This document shows positions 38,650 through 49,876 of a stretch of 64,000 nucleotides of DNA, piece after piece. This DNA comes from Parvibaculum sedimenti (GTDB lineage: Bacteria > Pseudomonadota > Alphaproteobacteria > Parvibaculales > Parvibaculaceae): assembly GCF_009184905.1 (NCBI RefSeq), contig NZ_WESC01000014.1:1-64000 (forward strand), written 5' to 3'. Position numbers and translations under genes: made by a program. The notes under the pieces were generated by a model, which worked only from the letters and a program-made list of their open reading frames with translations, did not search any database and was not told the origin of the DNA. The first letter of the stretch is position 1. Every line of letters starts with the position of its first letter.

Positions 38650-38725
<76 letters not shown>

Positions 38726-38791: not shown

Positions 38792-39103
38792 GCGTCTGTA
38801 CGCTGCATCTCACCTGACCAACACGCCCCCCAGGTCGTCGCACATTTTCCGCCCGTCGCCGGGGTTGCCATCTGGTTGGGGGCCCCTGATCCAGATCGGT
38901 ACGCTGCCGGGGCAGGGGGTATTTTGCGTTGTCGCAATGAATAAACAGGTGTGGAATTCCTGAGCAAAGCTGATGATGTTGTTGCAGCATCGGTCAGGGG
39001 CGAGCACACAAGCCGACGGCGCGTGCAATGCGGTACGCAATAGAGTCACGAACTTCGACTAAGCAGGTTGGCGTGCAGTAGCGCATATGGACAGGCGGGA
39101 GCG
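38792..39103. other. Intergenic region between tRNA-Lys and the hydrogenase operon
   Basis: About 310 bases with no convincing gene. Small minus-strand frames run through it but none has a ribosome-binding site or recognisable content. The hydrogenase promoter should lie here. I saw no good sigma-54 (TGGCAC-N5-TTGC) or FNR box. The operon start has CAGGCGGGAGCG before its ATG. A repeat of the tRNA 3' end, which would mark an integrated island, was not found in the right flank. Confidence 0.4.
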
Positions 39104-40246
39104 ATGAGCACAGACCTTGCGCTCCAGATCGGCGAGCATGCGCTTCTGGCGCGCGCCGAGTTTGGCAAGCTTATCGATGCCCTGCGCGGTCAGGGCTATG
39201 CCGTCATTGGACCGACCTTGCAGGGCGGCGCGATCGTATATTCGGAAATCAGTGGCGAGAGCGAGCTTCCCGTTGGATGGACCGATGAGCAGGAGGCGGG
39301 AACTTATCGCCTCAAGCGGCGCGAGGATGAGGCCCTGTTCGGCTATGTCGCGGGCGCCCAGTCGTGGAGGCCGTTTCTCTTCCAGCCGCGCCGGACGCTC
39401 TGGCGAGCAAAGGGAAGTGCTGCCGACTTCGCGATAGATCCCGACGTGAGAGAAACGCCGCGCTTCGCTTTTCTCGGCATGCGGGCCTGCGAACTCAAGG
39501 CCGTTTCCATTCAGGATCGCGTCTTCATGGATGGAATTCATCCCGATGCGGACTATAGCGCGCGGCGGGACGCGGCTTTCTTCATCGCCGTCAATTGTGC
39601 CAGGGCGGGCGCGACCTGCTTCTGCGTTTCAATGGATGCAGGTCCGCGCGCTGAAGCCGGCTACGATCTCGCGCTGACGGAGATAATAGGTGAGGGTCGG
39701 CATGATTTTCTGCTCGAGGTCGGTAGCCCGCGCGGCGCGGTCATTGCGTCCCTGCTTTCGTTGCGAGCGGCAGGCGACGGCGATGCTGCGGAGGCAGAGG
39801 CCATTGTTGAGCGGACGGCGCAAAGCATGGGCCGGGTGCTTCAAACCGAGGGGTTGAAGTCGCTGCTGCAGGAAAATCTCGAACATCCGCAATGGGACGA
39901 CGTGGCCGAGCGCTGCCTTTCCTGCGGCAATTGCACGTTCGCCTGTCCGACCTGCTTCTGCCACACGGATGAAGATGTGACCGATCTCGACGGTCAGGCC
40001 GCAGAGCGCCATCAGCGCTGGGATTCCTGCTTCAGTCTCGATTTCTCCTATATCCGCGGCGGCTCGGTCAGGCCCGGCATCGCCTCGCGTTACCGGCAAT
40101 GGATGACGCACAAGCTCGCGAACTGGATCGACCAGTTTGGAGAATCCGGATGTGTCGGCTGCGGACGCTGCATCACCTGGTGTCCTGCCGGAATCGACAT
40201 TACAGCCGAGGCGGCCGCGATCCGCGCGAGCATCGAGAAGGATTGA
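39104..40246 (+). CDS. [NiFe]-hydrogenase beta subunit, iron-sulfur (HydB-like)
   Basis: A 380-residue subunit similar to the beta subunit of soluble group 3b hydrogenases (sulfhydrogenase HydB/ShyB), which passes electrons between the hydrogenase dimer and the flavin subunit. The C-terminal third has two ferredoxin-type 4Fe-4S motifs: [16 protein letters not shown] (about residues 271-286) and [14 protein letters not shown] (about 350-363). The N-terminal 250 residues contain the family's [15 protein letters not shown] and [17 protein letters not shown] segments. ATG 39104 has GGGAG upstream. First gene of the operon; a longer frame from 39068 is unlikely. Confidence 0.9.
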
Positions 40247-40250
40247 GCTC

Positions 40251-40721
40251 ATGGAAACGCACAAGCTCGAGGACGTCATTGCCGCAGCCCCTTTCTTTCG
40301 CGGGCTCGACCCTGCCTTCTGCGCGACCATCGCCGGATGCGGAAAGCATGTGCGGTTCGAGAAGGGGCAGACTGTCTACCGACAGGGCGATCCGGCCGAC
40401 ACCTTTTACGTCGTTCAGCATGGACATGTGGCGCTGGAGCTTCCCGGCGCGGGCCGGCCGCTCGTCCATCAGACGCTTCACGACAACGACATCCTGAATG
40501 CCGCCTGGGTGGTTCCGCCTTACCGCTGCCATTCGAATGCGCGCGCGGTCGACACCACGGTCGCCATCGCCTTCGACGCCGCCTGCCTGCGCGGCAAATG
40601 CGATGCCGACCACGATCTTGGTTATGAGCTGATGAAGCGTTTCGTGCCCATCGTCGTCGAGCGGCTCAATCGCGCCCGGTTGCAGGCGCTGGATGTCTAC
40701 GGGCCGGGGAGCGCCGGCTGA
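40251..40721 (+). CDS. Cyclic nucleotide-binding domain protein in hydrogenase operon
   Basis: A 156-residue protein consisting of a single cNMP-binding-type beta barrel (FEKGQTVYRQGDPADTFYVVQHGHVALEL) and a helical C-terminal segment (DHDLGYELMKRFVPIVVERLNRARLQALDVYG). There is no helix-turn-helix, so it is not a complete Crp/Fnr regulator. The conserved nucleotide-binding Glu and Arg (FGE...R-A) are replaced by LNAAWVVPPYRCHSNARA. It sits four bases after the beta gene and overlaps the gamma gene by one base, so it is part of the hydrogenase operon. A regulatory or docking role is inferred; it may bind a different ligand or none. Confidence 0.75.
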   Translation: METHKLEDVIAAAPFFRGLDPAFCATIAGCGKHVRFEKGQTVYRQGDPADTFYVVQHGHVALELPGAGRPLVHQTLHDNDILNAAWVVPPYRCHSNARAVDTTVAIAFDAACLRGKCDADHDLGYELMKRFVPIVVERLNRARLQALDVYGPGSAG

Positions 40722-41566
40722 TGTCCATCGCCCCGTCGCGTTCCGATCCGATGGTGCCGCGGCGCTTCCGCATCGTCGAGAAGATCCACGAAACCGCCGA
40801 CACCTATACGTTTACGCTGGTGCCCGTTGACGGCGAAACCGCCTGTCGCTTCGCGCCCGGCCAGTTCAACATGCTTTATCTCTTCGGCTATGGCGAAGTG
40901 CCGATCAGCATCAGCGGCGACCCGGCGGCGCCGGAACGCCTCGTTCACACGGTCCGCGCGATGGGTAGCGTCACCCATGCCTTCGCGACGCTCGAGGCCG
41001 GAGACATGGTCGGCGTACGAGGCCCTTTCGGAAGCGCTTGGCCGCTTGCGGCCGCAGAGGGTGGGGACGTTCTCATCGTTGCGGGCGGGCTCGGCCTCGC
41101 ACCGCTGCGCTCCGCGATCTACCGGCTGCTCGCCGAACGCGACCGTTATCGTCGGATTGCGATCCTGCATGGCGCGCGAAGCCCGGAGACGATCCTCTTT
41201 GCCGAGGAACTGCGGCAATGGCGGCGCAACCTCGACATTGCCTGCGAGGTGACAGTCGATTATGCGGGCACCGATTGGCATGGGCGCGTCGGTGTCATTA
41301 CGCAACTTGTGGCCTTGGCGGGCTTTGACCCGCAGCGTGTCACGACCTTTGTTTGCGGCCCGGAAATCATGATGCGTTTCAGCGTCGAGGCACTGAAGAA
41401 GCAGGGTGTTGCCGATGAGCGTATCCATGTTTCAATGGAGCGCAGCATGAAATGCGCGCTGGGGCATTGTGGGCACTGCCAGTTCGGACCGGCTTTTCTC
41501 TGCAAGGATGGGCCTGTGCTCAGCTATGATCGCATCCGCAACCTCGTCGGCATCGCGGAGCTTTGA
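40721..41566 (+). CDS. [NiFe]-hydrogenase gamma subunit, FAD/NAD(P)-binding
   Basis: A 281-residue diaphorase-like subunit of the ferredoxin-NADP reductase superfamily that exchanges electrons with NAD(P). An FAD-binding domain contains [20 protein letters not shown]. An NAD(P)-binding domain has [17 protein letters not shown] and FVCGPEIMM. The C-terminal [21 protein letters not shown] binds a [2Fe-2S] cluster. This matches the gamma subunit HydG/ShyC of group 3b enzymes and dihydroorotate dehydrogenase electron-transfer subunits. It overlaps the cNMP-type gene (TGATG) and precedes the delta gene. Confidence 0.92.
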
Positions 41567-41571
41567 AGTCC

Positions 41572-42363
41572 ATGGCAAAGTCCAAACCCAAGCTCGCCGT
41601 TTGGAAATTCGCCTCTTGCGACGGATGCCAGCTTTCCATACTCGACCTCGAGGACGAGCTGCTCGCGCTGACGGGCGAGGTCGAGATCGCGCAATTCCTC
41701 GAAGCGACGCGCGCGGTCTCCGAAGGGCCATACGATCTCTCGCTGGTCGAGGGATCGATCACGACGGCGCATGACGCCGAGCGCATCAAGATGGTGCGGC
41801 AGCAGTCGAAAATGCTGGTCACCATCGGCGCTTGCGCCACTTCAGGCGGCATTCAGGCGCTGCGCAATTTTCGCGACATCAACGACTTCGTCGCGGCGGT
41901 CTATGCGCGACCCGATTATATCGACACGCTTGCGACCTCGACGCCGATTGCCGAGCATGTTGCCGTCGATTTCGAGCTCCGCGGTTGTCCCGTCAACAAG
42001 CATCAGCTTCTCGAAGTCGTCACCGCCTTTCTCTTCGGCCGCAAACCGATGGTGGCGGGCCACAGCGTCTGCATGGAGTGCAAGATGCGCGGCAATGTCT
42101 GCGTTACGGTCGCGCATGGCACGCCCTGTCTCGGGCCGGTAACGCAGGCCGGTTGCGGCGCGATCTGCCCGGCCTATGATCGTGGCTGCTACGGCTGTTA
42201 CGGTCCGCAGGACACACCTGCCATGCCGGCAATGTCGAAGGTGCTCGAGGCGCACGAGATGAAGGGCCGCGACATTCAGCGTATTCTCAGGACCTTCAAC
42301 GCGCACGCCGCACCCTTCCGTGAGGAGAGCCAACGTCATGACGCGGCGGACGATCAAGGTTGA
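41572..42363 (+). CDS. [NiFe]-hydrogenase delta (small) subunit
   Basis: The 263-residue small subunit carries the iron-sulfur chain to the active site. The proximal cluster ligands are in [11 protein letters not shown] (Cys16, Cys19) and [10 protein letters not shown]; further cysteines [17 protein letters not shown] and [19 protein letters not shown] supply the remaining clusters. The length (about 260) fits group 3b, which has a shorter small subunit than membrane hydrogenases. No Tat signal peptide is present, so the enzyme is cytosolic. Start ATG 41572 has GGAG upstream. Its last 26 bases overlap the large-subunit gene. Confidence 0.94.
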
Positions 42364-43654
42364 CCAGCTCGCCCGGGTCGAGGGCGAGGGCGCGCTGCAC
42401 GCGCAGGTGATCGACGGCAAGGTCGAGCATGTCGAGCTCAATATTTTCGAGCCGCCGCGCTTTTTCGAAGCCTTCCTTCAGGGACGGGATTTCAGGGAAG
42501 CGCCCGACATCACGGCGCGGATTTGCGGAATATGTCCGGTCGCCTATCAGATGAGTTCGGTCCATGCGATGGAGGCCGCCTGCGGCGTTACTGTCGGCGG
42601 CGCGCTTCGTGATCTCAGGCGGCTTCTCTATTGTGGAGAATGGATCGAGAGCCATGTGCTCCACATCTACATGCTGCATGCGCCCGATTTCCTTGGCTAT
42701 GAAGGCGCGGTCGACATGGCCCGCGATCACGCGGCCCTGCTGCAGCGCGGGCTCAGGATGAAAAAGGCCGGCAATGCGATTATCACGGTGATCGGCGGCC
42801 GCGAGGTTCACCCGGTCAATGTTCGCGTGGGCGGCTTCTATCGTCTGCCCGAGCGGCGAGAGCTGACGGCGCTGCACGATGAGTTGAACTGGGGCCGCGA
42901 TGCCGCACTCGAAACGGTGCAGTGGGCGGCCGGGCTCCCATTCCCGGACTTCGAGCGCGACTATGAGCTCGTCGCCTTGCGCCCTGCGGATGAATATCCG
43001 CTGAACGAGGGGCGCATCGTCTCGAACAAGGGGATCGATACTGATGCCGCCGGTTTCGAAGACATCTTCGAGGAAATCCATGTTGCGCATTCGACGGCGC
43101 TTCACGGAAACACCAAGGCGCGCGGTGCCTATCTCGTCGGCCCGCTGGCGCGCTACAGTCTCAATTTCGACCGCCTGCCGGAAAGCGTGCAGGCGGCGGC
43201 GATGGAGGCAGGGCTCGGCCGCGAATGCCGGAACCCCTTCAAGAGCATTGTCGTGCGCGCCGTGGAGGTACTCTTTGCATTCGACGAGGCATTGCGGATT
43301 ATCGACCGCTACGAAAGGCCGGCTGAGCCCTCGGTGCCGGTCGAGCCGCGTGCCGCTTCCGGGCAATGGGCGACGGAGGCGCCGCGCGGGCTTCTCTATC
43401 ATCGTTACGACATTGCCGCGGATGGAAGCATCCGCGTGGCGAAGATCGTGCCGCCGACTTCACAGAACCAGCCAAGCGTCGAGGAAGACCTGCGCGATGT
43501 GATCGCCGCCAATCTCGCGCTTGATGACGATGCCTTGCGTGGACGCTGCGAGCAGACGATCCGCAATTACGATCCCTGTATTTCCTGCGCGACGCATTTC
43601 CTGAAGCTCAATGTCAGGCGCGAAGGAGGTGGGGAAACATGCGACGCCTCGTGA
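42338..43654 (+). CDS. [NiFe]-hydrogenase alpha (large) subunit
   Basis: The 438-residue large subunit holds the Ni-Fe(CN)2CO centre. L1 is RICGICP (residues 61-67, cysteines 63 and 66) and L2 is DPCISCATH (residues 412-420, cysteines 414 and 417). The 18 residues beyond His420 (ending GGGETCDAS) are the extension removed by the maturation protease after nickel insertion. [13 protein letters not shown]-like sequence ([13 protein letters not shown]) fits group 3b. ATG 42338 overlaps the small-subunit gene. Substrate chemistry is NADP(H)-linked H2 oxidation/production or polysulfide reduction by analogy; not proven. Confidence 0.95.
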
Positions 43655-44097
43655 TTGGCATCGGCAATTCGGACAGGGGCGATGACGGTGCAGGCCTGGC
43701 CGCCGCGCGCGAGCTTGCGAGAAACATTCCGCAGGTCGTCACTGTCGTGGAGTCGCGCGGCGAGCCTGCGGGCCTCATCGATCAGTGGCAGAAGGCGGAT
43801 GTCGTCTTTCTCGTCGATGCCTGCGCAAGCGGTGTGGCACCGGGAACGATCCATCGTTTCGATGCGCGTCTGGCGCCGCTGCCGGAGCATTTCGGCGCGG
43901 TCTCGACACATGGCTTCGGCATAGGCGCGGCGGTTGAACTTGCACGCGCCATCGGATCGTTGCCGGCGTCGCTCATCGTCTATGGGATAGAGGCGGGTTC
44001 CTTCGAGCCGGGCGCGTGGTTGTCGCCGCCGGTCGCGAAAGCTGCACTCGATGTCGCTGCGCGCATTGCCGATGAACTTGCTTGCCTTTCAACCTGA
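43639..44097 (+). CDS. Hydrogenase maturation endopeptidase
   Basis: A 152-residue HycI/HyaD-family protease that clips the large-subunit C-terminal extension after nickel insertion. The Gly-rich N-terminal strand [19 protein letters not shown] matches the GxGNxxxxDDGxG signature, and the metal ligands (Asp16-region Asp and His91-region His) are represented by DDGAG and STHGFGIG. It starts 16 bases before the end of the large-subunit gene. The next gene is hypA. Confidence 0.9.
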
Positions 44098-44107
44098 AGA
44101 GGACCAG

Positions 44108-44371
44108 ATGCACGAAGCCTCGATCATGAATGACCTGATGGCGAAGATTAAGGACATTGCCAAAAAGGAGGGCGTCACCCGCGTCACCGGCATCGAGGTA
44201 TGGCTCGGCGCGCTCTCTCACATGTCGGCGGAGCACTTCCGTGAGCATTTCGAGGAATCCTCGAAGGGGTCGCTCGCGGAAGGCGCGCGTCTCGACGTTG
44301 AATGTTCGGACGATATCCGTCACCCCGACGCGCAGACCATCATGCTTAGGAGCATCGAAGCGGAGGATTGA
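44108..44371 (+). CDS. hypA: HypA-like nickel metallochaperone lacking the zinc-finger domain
   Basis: An 87-residue protein that begins MHEASIMNDLMAKI, the HypA N-terminus with the Ni-binding His2, and continues IAKKEGVTRVTGIEVWLGALSHMSAEHFREHFEE, the HypA core. Complete HypA has about 113 residues with two CxxC pairs that bind zinc; this protein has just one cysteine (VECSDD) and none of the CxxC motifs, jumping directly to RHPDAQTIMLRSIEAED, which resembles the usual C-terminal strand. The segment appears deleted in frame rather than broken. ATG 44108 has AGAGGACC upstream. The gene abuts hypF. Confidence 0.85.
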   Translation: MHEASIMNDLMAKIKDIAKKEGVTRVTGIEVWLGALSHMSAEHFREHFEESSKGSLAEGARLDVECSDDIRHPDAQTIMLRSIEAED

Positions 44372-46705
44372 ATGGCGGAGCGGGCGCGAGAGTTTTCTGC
44401 CGGGCGCGCGCGCCTGCGCTTCATGATCCGTGGCGCCGTGCAGGGCGTCGGCTTCCGACCGTTCATCTATCGCACGGCAACGCGTCTCGGCGTTACGGGC
44501 CATGTCGAGAACACCGGCGAGGGCGTCGTCGTCGAGGCCGAAGGTGCGCCATCACTTCTCGAAGCTTTTGCGCAGGCGCTTGCAAATGATGCGCCCGTTC
44601 AGGCACATGTCCGGTCTGTTGTGCGTGAAGTTCTGCAGCCGTTGGGGAGCCGGAACTTCGTCATTCGCGACAGTGTCGCGGGGCGCGCGCGGAGCGCGGT
44701 GGTTCTGCCGGACATCGCGGCCTGCGACGCCTGTCTTGCCGAGATTTTCGACCCGGCGAACCGGCGTCACCTCTATCCCTTCACAAATTGCACGGATTGC
44801 GGCCCGCGCTATTCGATCCTGCGAGATCTGCCTTATGACCGTGCCCGAACCACAATGGCGGCGTTCCCGATGTGCGCGGACTGCGCACGGGAATATGCCG
44901 ATCCGGGCGACCGCCGCTTTCACGCGGAGCCGACCGCCTGTCCGGTCTGTGGACCGCAGATGGCGCTATGGGATCGTGATGGCAGGGTGATCGCGGCGGA
45001 TGGCGACGCAATTGAAGAAGCGGCGGGACTTCTTCGCGGCGGCGGCATCGTCGCCATAAAGGGGATCGGCGGATTTCATCTCTTTGTCGATGCGCGGAAC
45101 GGCGAGGCGGTCAAAGTGTTGCGAGCGCGCAAGAGGCGGCCCGCCAAGCCGTTCGCCCTGATGGTGCCTTCGCTCGATGACGCGCGGCAGCTTTGCGATG
45201 TCAGCGTGGATGAGGAGGCGCTGCTCGCATCCAGTGCGGCTCCCATCGTTCTGACGCGCAGGCTTTCGGGCGCAGAGGTGGCGGAGGAGGTCGCGCCAGA
45301 TCAACGCGTACTCGGGCTCATGCTGCCCTATGCGCCGCTTCACCACATGCTGATGCGGTCACTCGGCTTTCCTGTCGTCGCGACGAGCGGGAATGTGAGC
45401 GACGAGCCTATTGTCACTGATGAGCATGACGCGCTTCAGCGCCTTCACGCCATTGCGGATGCATTTCTGGTTCATGACCGCGCCATCGCGCGGCCCGCCG
45501 AGGATTCGGTGATGCGCGTGATCCTCGGCGCGTCGCAGGCGATCCGCCGGGGGCGGGGACTGGCACCCCTGTCGTTGACGCTCGATCCGGGTGTCGTCGG
45601 AGAATGCCCCTCGGTTCTGGCGCTTGGCGGCCATCTCAAGGCGGCGGCAACCTTGCTGCGCGGCACCGAAGCCATTGTTGGCGCCCATGCCGGCGATCTC
45701 GGCACGCTCGATGCGGAACGGAGATTCGCGGCGACACTCGAAGATCTCGAAACGCTGCACGGGATGCGCGCGGATATCGTCGCCTGCGATCTTCATCCGG
45801 ACTATGCGACGACGCGGATCGCGGAGAGTCTGAGGCGGCCGATCATCCGTGTGCAGCATCATCTGGCGCATGTTGCCTCCGCCATGGCGGAGCACGCGCT
45901 CGGAGGCCCGCTTCTTGGCGTCGGCTGGGACGGGACCGGGTATGGCGCCGACGGTGCGATATGGGGCGGCGAATTTCTGAGAGTGGAAAGAGGCGAGTGG
46001 TCGCGGGTCGCGCATCTGCGGCCATTTCGACTGCCAGGCTCGGAGGTGGCGGCCCGCGAGCCGCGGCGGGCGGCGCTTGGCATGCTTCACGAAGCTCTGG
46101 GCGCACACGCCGTCGAGCGCAGCGATCTGACGCCTGTATCGGCTTTCAGCGCGGCCGAGCGCGTCGTCCTTGGCCGGATGCTCGAGCGTGGCGTCCAGTC
46201 TCCCTGGACGACGAGCGCCGGACGGCTCTTCGATGCCTTTGCCGCGCTGCTCGGGCTCGTGCTCGTTGCGAGCCATGAAGGTGAGGCGGCCATGCGTCTC
46301 GAGGCGTTGGCGGCAGAGAGCGAGGTTGAAGGCGCGGCGACGATGTCTTATCCCTTCGACATCGTGGCGCCGAGAGAAGGGCCGCTCGTCATCGATTGGG
46401 TGCCTATGCTCCGGGCGGTGCTGCGGGATCGGGCGGCGGGCGTTGCACGGGCCGAAATCGCCATGCGCATTCACGTGAGTTTTGCAGCTATGATCGCGGC
46501 GGTAGCGGCAAGGCTCGGCCTCGGCATGGCGGTGCTCAGTGGCGGCTGCTTTCAGAGCCGGCTGCTGACGGAGCTTGCTGCCGCGCGGATCGAGGCGGAG
46601 GGATTGACGGTCTTTCTTGCGCGCGCTGTGCCACCGAATGACGGCGGATTGTCGCTCGGTCAGGCGCTATGGGCGCGCTGGACAGCGTCGAAGGAGAAAA
46701 GCTGA
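44372..46705 (+). CDS. hypF: Carbamoyltransferase HypF
   Basis: A 777-residue maturation factor that makes the cyanide ligands of the NiFe centre by carbamoylating HypE. Domains in order: acylphosphatase (about 15-95, RGAVQGVGFRPFIYR), two zinc fingers (CDACLAEI...CTDCGPRYSI and CADCAREY...CPVCGPQM), a YrdC-like domain (AIKGIGGFHLFVDA and RARKRRPAKPFALMV) and a Kae1-like carbamoyltransferase domain (HHLAHVASAMAEH and GVGWDGTGYGADGAIWGGE). It starts immediately after the hypA stop (TGAATG) and overlaps hypC. Confidence 0.95.
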   Translation: MAERAREFSAGRARLRFMIRGAVQGVGFRPFIYRTATRLGVTGHVENTGEGVVVEAEGAPSLLEAFAQALANDAPVQAHVRSVVREVLQPLGSRNFVIRDSVAGRARSAVVLPDIAACDACLAEIFDPANRRHLYPFTNCTDCGPRYSILRDLPYDRARTTMAAFPMCADCAREYADPGDRRFHAEPTACPVCGPQMALWDRDGRVIAADGDAIEEAAGLLRGGGIVAIKGIGGFHLFVDARNGEAVKVLRARKRRPAKPFALMVPSLDDARQLCDVSVDEEALLASSAAPIVLTRRLSGAEVAEEVAPDQRVLGLMLPYAPLHHMLMRSLGFPVVATSGNVSDEPIVTDEHDALQRLHAIADAFLVHDRAIARPAEDSVMRVILGASQAIRRGRGLAPLSLTLDPGVVGECPSVLALGGHLKAAATLLRGTEAIVGAHAGDLGTLDAERRFAATLEDLETLHGMRADIVACDLHPDYATTRIAESLRRPIIRVQHHLAHVASAMAEHALGGPLLGVGWDGTGYGADGAIWGGEFLRVERGEWSRVAHLRPFRLPGSEVAAREPRRAALGMLHEALGAHAVERSDLTPVSAFSAAERVVLGRMLERGVQSPWTTSAGRLFDAFAALLGLVLVASHEGEAAMRLEALAAESEVEGAATMSYPFDIVAPREGPLVIDWVPMLRAVLRDRAAGVARAEIAMRIHVSFAAMIAAVAARLGLGMAVLSGGCFQSRLLTELAAARIEAEGLTVFLARAVPPNDGGLSLGQALWARWTASKEKS

Positions 46706-46944
46706 TGTGTCTCGCGGTGCCCGGCTGCATTCTTTCGACATCGGGCGAGGATTTTTCCCGGATGGGACGGGTCGATTTCGGCGGCATCGTCCGGCAGATC
46801 AATCTTGCCTTCACGCCGGAGGCGCGCGTCGGCGATTATGTGCTGGTGCATGTCGGCGTTGCCATCGCGACGATCGACGAGGCTGAAGCCGAGCGTGTCT
46901 TCGCCGCGCTCGAAAGTCTCGGCGAGGCCGGAGGCGCGGCATGA
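46705..46944 (+). CDS. hypC: Hydrogenase assembly chaperone HypC
   Basis: The 79-residue HypC/HybG chaperone begins MCLAVPGCI with the essential Cys2 that binds the iron centre and the large-subunit precursor. The short beta-barrel that follows contains [31 protein letters not shown]. The length matches HypC. The ATG overlaps the hypF stop (TGATG), and its end overlaps the hypD start. Confidence 0.95.
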
Positions 46945-48044
46945 AGCATGTCGACGAATACAGGGACGCTGAAGCTGTCGCGCGGCTTGCAGGTGCCATT
47001 GCCGCAGCGACAACGCGGCCCTGGACGATCATGGAAATATGCGGCGGGCAGACGCATGCAATCATGCGCTTCGGGCTCGATCAGCTTCTGCCGCGCGAGA
47101 TCACGCTTGTGCATGGGCCGGGCTGTCCCGTTTGCGTGACGCCGGAAGCCTATATCGACAAGGCGCTCGAAATCGCCGCGATGCCAAGCGTCATCTTCTG
47201 CTCATTTGGCGACATGCTGCGCGTGCCGGGTGCGAGGGGTGATCTTCTTGGCGTCAAGGCGCGGGGCGGCGATATCCGCATCGTCTATTCGCCGCTCGAC
47301 GCGGTGGAGATCGCCCGGGCCAATCCCGGACGGGAAGTCGTCTTCTTCGCCGTTGGCTTCGAGACGACGGCACCCGCCAATGCGATGGCTGCGCATAAGG
47401 CGCGGAGCGAGGGCGTGAAAAACTTCTCGCTTCTCGTGTCGCAGGTGCTGGTGCCGCCCGCCATGGAGGCACTTCTGTCGGCGCCCGATACGCGCGTGCA
47501 GGGGTTCCTCGCGGCAGGGCATGTCTGCACCATCATGGGCACCGAAGCCTATGGGCCCATTGCCGCCCGCTATCGTGTACCCGTCGTTATTACCGGCTTC
47601 GAGCCGGTGGATATTCTCGCCGGCATACTCGCTTGCGTTCAGGCGCTGGAGGAGGACCGGCACGAGGCAATCAATATGTATGCGCGCATGGTGAGGCCGG
47701 AGGGCAATCTTCCCGCCCGTACGCTCATTGATGAGGTTTTCGAGATTGCCGACCGCGAGTGGCGCGGCCTTGGCGTGTTGCCGTCAAGCGGGCTCGCATT
47801 GCGGCCTGCCTATTCGGCGCTCGATGCCGAGCGCCGCTTCGGTGCGGCAGAAAACGCTGCCACGGCGCCATCCATCTGCATCAGCGGCGACATTCTGCGC
47901 GGTGTCTGCTCACCGCTTCAGTGTCCTGCCTTTGGCGGCGCCTGCACACCGGAGCATCCGCTCGGCGTCACAATGGTGTCGTCCGAAGGCGCCTGCGCCG
48001 CCTATTATCGCTATCGCGGTGCGACCCGCCTGGCGGGAGATTGA
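46941..48044 (+). CDS. hypD: Hydrogenase formation protein HypD
   Basis: The 367-residue 4Fe-4S protein works with HypC to build the Fe(CN)2CO group. It has [26 protein letters not shown] with the CxxC pair that binds the iron, [11 protein letters not shown], and near the C-terminus [27 protein letters not shown] for the cluster. It overlaps hypC by four bases and hypE follows after 4 bases. Confidence 0.95.
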
Positions 48045-48048
48045 GCCC

Positions 48049-49098
48049 ATGAGCGAATCCCGGAATGTCATCTGCCCCACGCCCGCGAGTGAGACGGAAG
48101 TCGTTCAAATGGCGCATGGCGGCGGCGGGCGGCTGATGAACGCGCTCATCGAGACAGTAATCCGTCCCGCCTTCGCCAATCCGCTGCTCGATCAGCGTCA
48201 TGACGGCGCGGTCTTCGAGGCGGGCGGCGCACGGTTGGCCTTCACCACGGACTCATATGTCGTGAAGCCGCTCTTCTTTCCAGGGGGAGACATTGGCAGT
48301 CTCGCTGTCAACGGAACCGTGAACGATCTCGCCATGTGCGGCGCCGAGCCGCTTTATCTCAGCGCGGCCTTCATCATCGAGGAGGGGTTTCCGATTGTTG
48401 ATCTGCGCCGCGTCGTTGCGTCGATGGAGGATGCGGCGAGACGCGCGAGCGTGAGCTTCGTCACGGGCGACACCAAGGTTGTCGATCGTGGCAAGGGCGA
48501 CGCGCTTTTCATCAACACCGCCGGCGTCGGCACCGTCCGCGCGAAATCTCTGGTCGGTCCCGCAGCGGTTAAACCCGGCGATGTCCTCATCCTCAGCGGC
48601 GATCTCGGCCGTCATGGCATAGCCATCATGGCGGCGCGCGAAGGCCTCGCCTTCGAGACCGCAATTGCGAGCGACTGCGCGCCGCTATGGTCGCCGGTGC
48701 GTCGTCTGATCGAGGCCGGCATCGAGGTCCATTGCCTGCGTGACCTGACGCGCGGGGGCCTTGCGTCTGCTCTGATCGAGATCGCGGAAGCGGCGGCTTG
48801 CGCGATCAAACTCGACGAGACCACCATTCCCGTGCAGCCTGAGGTGCGCGCTGCCTGCGAACTTCTGGGGCTCGATCCGCTTTATGTCGCAAATGAGGGG
48901 CGCTTTGTTGCCTTCGTTGCTGAAGCCGACGTGGTGCGGGCGCTCGATCTGCTTGCCGGCGATGACGTGTCAGCTGGTGCCGCCGTGATCGGCCGCGTTA
49001 CCGCGGAGGAGCGCGGCGCCGTCGCTATCCGGGGCGCATATGGTGCCATACGTAGGCTGACCATGTTGAGCGGGGAGCAGCTGCCCCGAATTTGTTGA
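48049..49098 (+). CDS. hypE: Hydrogenase maturation protein HypE
   Basis: A 349-residue PurM-like ATPase that converts the HypF-supplied carbamoyl group to a thiocyanate on its C-terminal cysteine. [18 protein letters not shown] binds ATP, followed by [32 protein letters not shown]. The protein ends PRIC, the conserved tail whose final Cys carries the cyanide. It is the last hyp gene; its stop overlaps the TTG of a small frame (next entry). Confidence 0.95.
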
Positions 49099-49268
49099 TT
49101 TTCACACGGCTCCTCATATGCGTCACCTTCATCGCCATCATTTTTCTGCTGCCGGCTTCGACGGCCATCCGCGACGCCGGACCGGCTTTGTGTGAGTGCC
49201 GGCCGGGCTGCGGCATTTCGACCAGAGACCCTGGAGCCGCGCTGGATTTTGCGCGGTTTGGCGTATGA
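49095..49268 (+). CDS. Small membrane/exported Cys-containing ORF (57 aa), candidate
   Basis: A TTG at 49095 overlaps the hypE stop (TTGA) and the frame runs 57 codons to TGA at 49266. The N-terminus is a hydrophobic helix ([20 protein letters not shown]) that could be a signal or membrane anchor, followed by [10 protein letters not shown]. Codons suit this genome. There is no Shine-Dalgarno site, so translation would rely on coupling to hypE. I know no family for it. It could equally be untranslated spacer. Confidence 0.35.
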
Positions 49269-49339
49269 ATATTCGCCAAAGGCAATCGGCATGACGCGTG
49301 GAGGCGCTTTCCGCCCACGCGAATGGAGTGTAGCAAGAC

Positions 49340-49876
49340 ATGAGTAACGCCACGACGAATCGCGATCGCATTTTCGGTATTGTGCCCCGCAACCTTGCGA
49401 CGCCGGTCACGGCCTCCGTCTTCGTCGTCATAGGCGTCTCCGGTCTCATGCTCTTTTTCGGCCTCTTCGAGGATTCCGTTAAGGAGATGCACGAATGGAT
49501 CGGGCTCGCTTTTGTCGCGGCCGTGATCCTTCATCTGGCGCGGAACTGGATTCCCCTTCAGGTCATGATGCGGCAGAAGGCCACCAAGGCGTCGGCACTC
49601 GCCGTGGCGCTTGTCGCCGCAGTTTTCATCGGCGGCGCGATGATGGGCGGCGAAGAGGAAAATCCGCTTCGCGTCATGGCGCGCGCGGTCGAAACGGCGC
49701 CCCTCGAAGCGTCCGCAGCGGTGCTCGGCATTTCTCAGGACGAAATCTTCGCGCGCCTGCGCAAGGCCGGCATCGAGCCCGCGGCAGATGCGCGCTCGCT
49801 CGCCGACATCATCGAGAAGAGTGGCGCCGATCCGCGCCGCGTCATGGGCGCCGTGGTCGCCTCCACGCAGGACTAG
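49340..49876 (+). CDS. DUF4405-domain membrane protein
   Basis: A 178-residue protein with two to three transmembrane helices. Residues 18-70 (LATPVTASVFVVIGVSGLMLFF, then KEMHEWIGLAFVAAVILHLARNW) contain two histidines spaced as in di-helical b-heme anchors, the profile of DUF4405. The C-terminal half (RVMARAVETAPLEASAAVLGISQDEIFARLRKAGI) is a small soluble helical domain. It lies downstream of the hyp genes but is separated by about 240 bases. Function is unknown; a link to hydrogenase is positional only. Confidence 0.75.
   Translation: MSNATTNRDRIFGIVPRNLATPVTASVFVVIGVSGLMLFFGLFEDSVKEMHEWIGLAFVAAVILHLARNWIPLQVMMRQKATKASALAVALVAAVFIGGAMMGGEEENPLRVMARAVETAPLEASAAVLGISQDEIFARLRKAGIEPAADARSLADIIEKSGADPRRVMGAVVASTQD

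Follow-up and report, generated by a model that had tools for sequence, protein, structure and literature searches.

The window, the whole 64,000-nucleotide stretch of Parvibaculum sedimenti DNA analysed here, carries on its forward strand an 11-gene hydrogenase operon that encodes, in order, an Fe-S subunit, a cyclic-nucleotide-binding-domain protein, an FAD/NAD(P)-binding subunit, the small and large subunits, a protease, a short HypA, HypF, HypC, HypD and HypE. The hyhB-like Fe-S gene (39104-40246) has an uncertain start, TTG 39068 being possible, and is followed by the cyclic-nucleotide-binding-domain gene (40251-40721), which we recognized from its conservation in these operons and the annotation of relatives. 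Profile matches assign the hyhG-like FAD/NAD(P)-binding subunit (40721-41566), hyhS (41572-42363; TTG 41563 is a possible start) and the NiFe large subunit gene hyhL (42338-43654; possible GTG start at 42320), whose product bears RICGIC and DPCISCATH motifs. Further profile matches place a maturation protease of the HycI/HyaD family (43639-44097), hypF (44372-46705), hypC (46705-46944), hypD (46941-48044) and hypE (48049-49098), with the short hypA (44108-44371), assigned by translation of its open reading frame (ORF), Pfam, a fold model and a tree, between the protease gene and hypF. The initial annotation had stated that hypB is missing from an otherwise complete A, F, C, D, E set, and profile searches of the window genes bore this out, with no hypB detected in the operon.

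The operon shows the four-subunit order B-G-S-L plus protease, and its large subunit has RxCGxC and DPCxxCxxH motifs and a cleavable tail, as in group 3b NAD(P)-linked NiFe hydrogenases; the enzyme scores below the HydA/ShyA equivalog cut-offs, its nearest families being sulfhydrogenases. When short-form operons were compared with canonical ones, no difference in the HyhL tails was seen. The cyclic-nucleotide-binding-domain gene is kept between the Fe-S and FAD subunits in nearly all such operons, and a similar gene follows hoxH and its protease in a Cupriavidus hox operon (L079). Downstream of hypE, a DUF4405 membrane protein gene (49340-49876) encodes a product that weakly resembles a hydrogenase cytochrome b; it was found in none of 60 related loci.

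The hydrogenase segment (39068-49876) lies directly downstream of a forward-strand tRNA-Lys(CTT) gene (38650-38725), which marks its left edge as judged by the end of sister-species synteny. Sequence upstream is syntenic in 25 of 27 same-genus genomes (P. sedimenti itself counted), and where the same-genus match runs on it stops at about the tRNA-Lys 3' end, 38725. Because synteny ends at this point, the operon looks horizontally acquired at the tRNA-Lys gene. A search for a repeat of the tRNA end as the right edge of the segment found no second copy, and no match to the short HypA was present among the other 39 family members searched.

Translation of the ORF at 44108-44371 (+) yields a protein of 87 amino acids, MHEASIMNDLMAKIKDIAKKEGVTRVTGIEVWLGALSHMSAEHFREHFEESSKGSLAEGARLDVECSDDIRHPDAQTIMLRSIEAED, with an N-terminal Met-His-Glu, one cysteine and no CxxC, in agreement with the earlier description of a HypA that kept its nickel motif and lost both CxxC pairs. 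Pfam HypA (PF01155) matches the product with an E-value of 9e-13 over profile positions 1-66 of 112 only; the protein passes the PF01155 gathering cut-off (48.6 bits vs 28.9) and misses the TIGR00100 equivalog cut-off (47.7 bits vs 88.1). Its ATG follows a good, AGAGGA-type ribosome site, and the hypF ATG (44372) comes immediately after its stop (44371), which leaves no space for a hidden zinc domain.

An AlphaFold2 model of the short HypA, built with 53 sequences, reached a pLDDT of 90.7 and is predicted to fold as helix-strand-helix-strand-strand, with the C-terminal strand at residues 78-86. We aligned the model with VIA-align to crystal structures of HypA, HypAB and HyhL-HypA complexes among them. 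All 87 of its 87 residues superposed onto HypA 1-135 (5aup and 3a43; Z 13.4, rmsd 1.7-1.8 A), as did 86 residues onto HypA bound to HyhL (5yxy and 5yy0; Z 13.3), all four alignments skipping the zinc domain, and the next-best fold, RidA-like, scored a Z of about 8. In the model the zinc domain is thus cleanly excised with the last strand retained, and residues 78-86 overlie the final strand of experimentally determined HypA structures, as the initial annotation had proposed.

Closer inspection of the retained domain revealed residues that set the short forms apart. Position 40 is Glu or Asp in 85% of the full-length HypA proteins in our sample, whereas 98% of short forms have Ser or Thr there; in Helicobacter pylori HypA, Asp40 has been proposed to bind nickel (PMC7055735). 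Short forms carry His43 in 98% and His47 in 100% of members, both on helix 2, where full-length HypA has A/L or C/A/S instead, and Met1-His2-Glu3 is kept in 97-98% of short-form members. These frequencies are somewhat inflated, because members were recruited by an HFREHF-type pattern as well as an N-terminal pattern; among the 13 sequences recruited by the N-terminal pattern alone, all 13 keep both His43 and His47.

We identified 60 short relatives of 82-104 amino acids, none of which contains a CxxC, and among the 59 distinct sequences (that of the window included) 44 lack cysteine altogether and none has a CxxC. The short form spans at least eight phyla, and a profile search of genome contigs returned 56 loci, from Pseudomonadota, Myxococcota, Planctomycetota, Gemmatimonadota, Chloroflexota, Cyanobacteriota, Verrucomicrobiota, Omnitrophota and Zixiibacteriota. 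The gene lies almost always between the protease gene and hypF of a group-3b-type operon, and nearly all loci keep the gene order; some Thioalkalivibrio loci have the structural genes several kb upstream, and Mastigocoleus has a different order. The closest relative found was that of Luminiphilus (72% HypA identity). When plasmids were searched with the protein, four matches of nearly full length were returned, all short HypAs adjoining a protease on Burkholderiaceae plasmids; in three cases hypF and other hyp genes come next. Viral contigs held no relative of the short HypA; a single full-length HypA in the phage collection sits in a bacterial scaffold and is irrelevant here.

Within a large bacterial clade of group 3b, the short HypA is the norm and not a peculiarity of a single genome. 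A sequencing error or frameshift at this locus is ruled out by the lack of room before hypF and by the 60 relatives, which occur in the same operon context. That the gene is a decaying remnant or an artefact is, more generally, a reading to which we give almost no credence. It draws on one plasmid copy from Paraburkholderia phytofirmans (L018, 9001-9315) that reads MRE for MHE, so that His2 is gone, has Asn43, and has lost the adjacent hypFCDE; this copy is possibly decaying, so some copies need not be active. The 60 independent relatives, the strong purifying selection described below and the preserved operon order all speak against it for the family.

In a tree built on the shared first 66 residues, the short forms make up a single clade of one origin (support 100/99), which answers whether the zinc-domain deletion is common to a clade, and a short-form hidden Markov model (HMM) gave its own members 120-147 bits, full-length HypA reaching no more than 52. 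Median dN/dS was 0.13 for Thioalkalivibrio, 0.11 for Novosphingobium and 0.22 for another group of proteobacteria, so the short HypA is clearly under purifying selection; these values of roughly 0.1-0.2, together with the single clade, uphold the earlier proposal that the in-frame deletion is functional and not decayed. In the HyhL tree the enzymes of short-form operons grouped together in 51 rows (90/98). Nested among them are two exceptions, G268 and G097 (L191 and L192), which, in a natural replacement, have canonical full-length HypA and HypB in place of the short form. The G268 operon stops after the protease gene, its hypA-hypB being located elsewhere, and in G097 a full-length hypA-hypB pair sits inside the operon. 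Because both of these enzymes are nested in the short-HypA clade and use HypA and HypB, the group-3b enzyme type seems able to work with either maturation set.

We then considered the nickel-maturation genes of the whole P. sedimenti genome (G000; 3.70 Mb in 41 contigs, rated 100% complete). Neither a second HypA above cut-off nor a HypB was found in it; the best HypB (TIGR00073) match, FtsY, reached 23.5 bits vs a cut-off of 121.2, and UreG (TIGR00101) gave no match at an E-value of 1e-3. The HyhL of this operon is the sole NiFe large subunit that the genome encodes, so its single NiFe hydrogenase has the short HypA and no other HypA to serve it. Of the two findings named beforehand as refuting the earlier reading, a full-length hypA-hypB pair elsewhere in the genome and a sequencing error, neither turned up.

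This association extends across genomes. Among 42 genomes carrying the short form, it is the sole HypA in 37, none of which has a HypB above cut-off, and HypB occurs in exactly the remaining five (G042, G049, G063, G069 and G080), which hold a full-length HypA near HypB besides the short form. A separate draw, of 398 genomes belonging to the phylum, contained 27 further genomes that encode a HyhL-like protein; 24 of these had a HypA, full-length in each case, and all 24 had HypB. Pooling the sets and adding P. sedimenti, HypB is present in 0/38 short-only genomes vs 29/29 genomes with full-length HypA (Fisher p ~1e-19, a test that ignores kinship and includes some draft assemblies). Zinc domain and HypB are thus absent together.

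One explanation for this pattern is that another nucleotide-dependent metallochaperone, such as UreG, a COG0523/CobW-type GTPase or an Mrp/MinD-type ATPase as in Thermococcus, or else SlyD, replaces HypB. UreG has been proposed as the HypB substitute for Nitrosococcus oceani (PMC7285500), HypB matches below the cut-off and of a strength like that of UreG occur in about 11 of the 37 short-only genomes, and P. sedimenti has one COG0523-type GTPase, unlinked and on another contig, which we count against a HypB-independent reading. However, about 26 of the 37 lack any HypB/UreG-like match at 1e-6 (with at most one weak exception), ten isolates among them being Luminiphilus, Thioalkalivibrio halophilus, Nitrosomonas mobilis, Parerythrobacter and six Novosphingobium. 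The queries run linked no NTPase to short-hypA operons, and the other identified G3E-like matches in P. sedimenti are Era, MeaB, FtsY and Der. UreG as substitute fails for P. sedimenti, which has none, and for most other genomes examined, and, from these searches for HypB-, UreG- and G3E-like proteins, we regard replacement by another such factor as unlikely.

Since the zinc-less HypA goes with complete HypB loss in many unrelated bacteria, cells with the short form probably insert nickel by a simpler, HypB-free route, an interpretation we infer from gene content. We consider it likely that the short HypA is a conserved zinc-free, HypB-independent nickel chaperone that acts directly on the large subunit. 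Under this model, Ni(II) would be loaded at the N-terminal Met-His-Glu and passed straight to the iron-loaded, unprocessed HyhL encoded beside it, with neither a zinc domain nor the HypB GTPase taking part in the transfer. E. coli HypA can bind its large subunit even without HypB, which we count in favor of this model, and Thermococcus HyhL contacts HypA at the MHE/His98 nickel site (PMC7055735). H. pylori HypA zinc-site mutants lose hydrogenase activity (PMC7055735) and breaking the HypA-HypB contact in E. coli abolishes maturation and activity (PMC3287977).

In Thermococcus, HypB binding swings HypA His98 towards the MHE and creates a nanomolar nickel site (reviewed in PMC7055735). In the short form, judging from their conservation, His43 and His47 may supply a permanent extra nickel ligand and hence a preformed site, in which case a nucleotide-driven rearrangement would no longer be needed. 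That the protein is a nucleotide-free nickel insertase, with the His43/His47 ligand standing in for the HypB-driven movement of the zinc domain in a widespread clade that has no HypB-type NTPase, is a tentative proposal that we hold at rather less than even confidence. The strongly conserved HFREHF patch would also suit a protein that carries no nickel and only docks on, or holds, the immature large subunit, with nickel drawn from the cell pool as in nickel-fed hypB mutants; hypA and hypB defects are indeed partly rescued by added nickel (PMC3287977). Retention of Met1-His2-Glu3, the nickel site itself, at the frequency given above argues against so passive a role, which we judge improbable, and we retain the direct nickel chaperone as the preferred reading.

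The usual account of NiFe hydrogenase maturation includes HypB with its GTP hydrolysis and the zinc domain of HypA as standard components. A clade that has lost both parts together across many phyla constitutes a natural experiment on the purpose of HypB and the zinc domain, and the joint loss suggests that the two function as a single unit and that the nickel domain can be enough by itself. A self-contained 11-gene cassette that lacks HypB could also simplify hydrogenase expression in other hosts.

The absence of hypB from such clusters had already been noted in 2020, when the N. oceani genome paper described hypAFCDE clusters of this type as often lacking hypB; the sections of it that we consulted neither mention a shortened HypA nor test the HypB linkage across genomes (PMC7285500). 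A cyanobacterial survey likewise records the group 3b enzyme of Mastigocoleus testarum, with no remark on the HypA form in the part consulted (PMC5186783). We found no description of a zinc-less HypA or of its link to HypB loss in the open-licence literature.

Collectively, the initial observation holds, comparative genomics supports well its interpretation as a zinc-free, probably HypB-independent nickel insertion step, and the feature is best described as a widespread variant of a known system. It resembles HypA/HybF (PF01155, TIGR00100; 3a43, 5aun/5aup, 5yxy/5yy0, 6g81) in its MHE motif, its alpha-beta-alpha-beta-beta fold with a C-terminal strand and its position among hyp genes, but differs in lacking the CxxC-Xn-CxxC zinc domain, in falling below the TIGR00100 equivalog cut-off, in its non-acidic residue 40 and new His43/His47, and in having no HypB partner in the genome. 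With the hypB-less hypAFCDE group 3b clusters (N. oceani AFC132, Nitrospina, Marinobacter and Luminiphilus; PMC7285500) it shares the kind of operon and the missing gene. The HypA-HypB(ATPase)-HyhL system of Thermococcus kodakarensis offers a further parallel, as its HyhL-type large subunit is matured by direct HypA contact; there, however, the zinc domain, His98 and an ATPase-type HypB make the high-affinity nickel site, whereas the system described here has neither the zinc domain nor a linked HypB.
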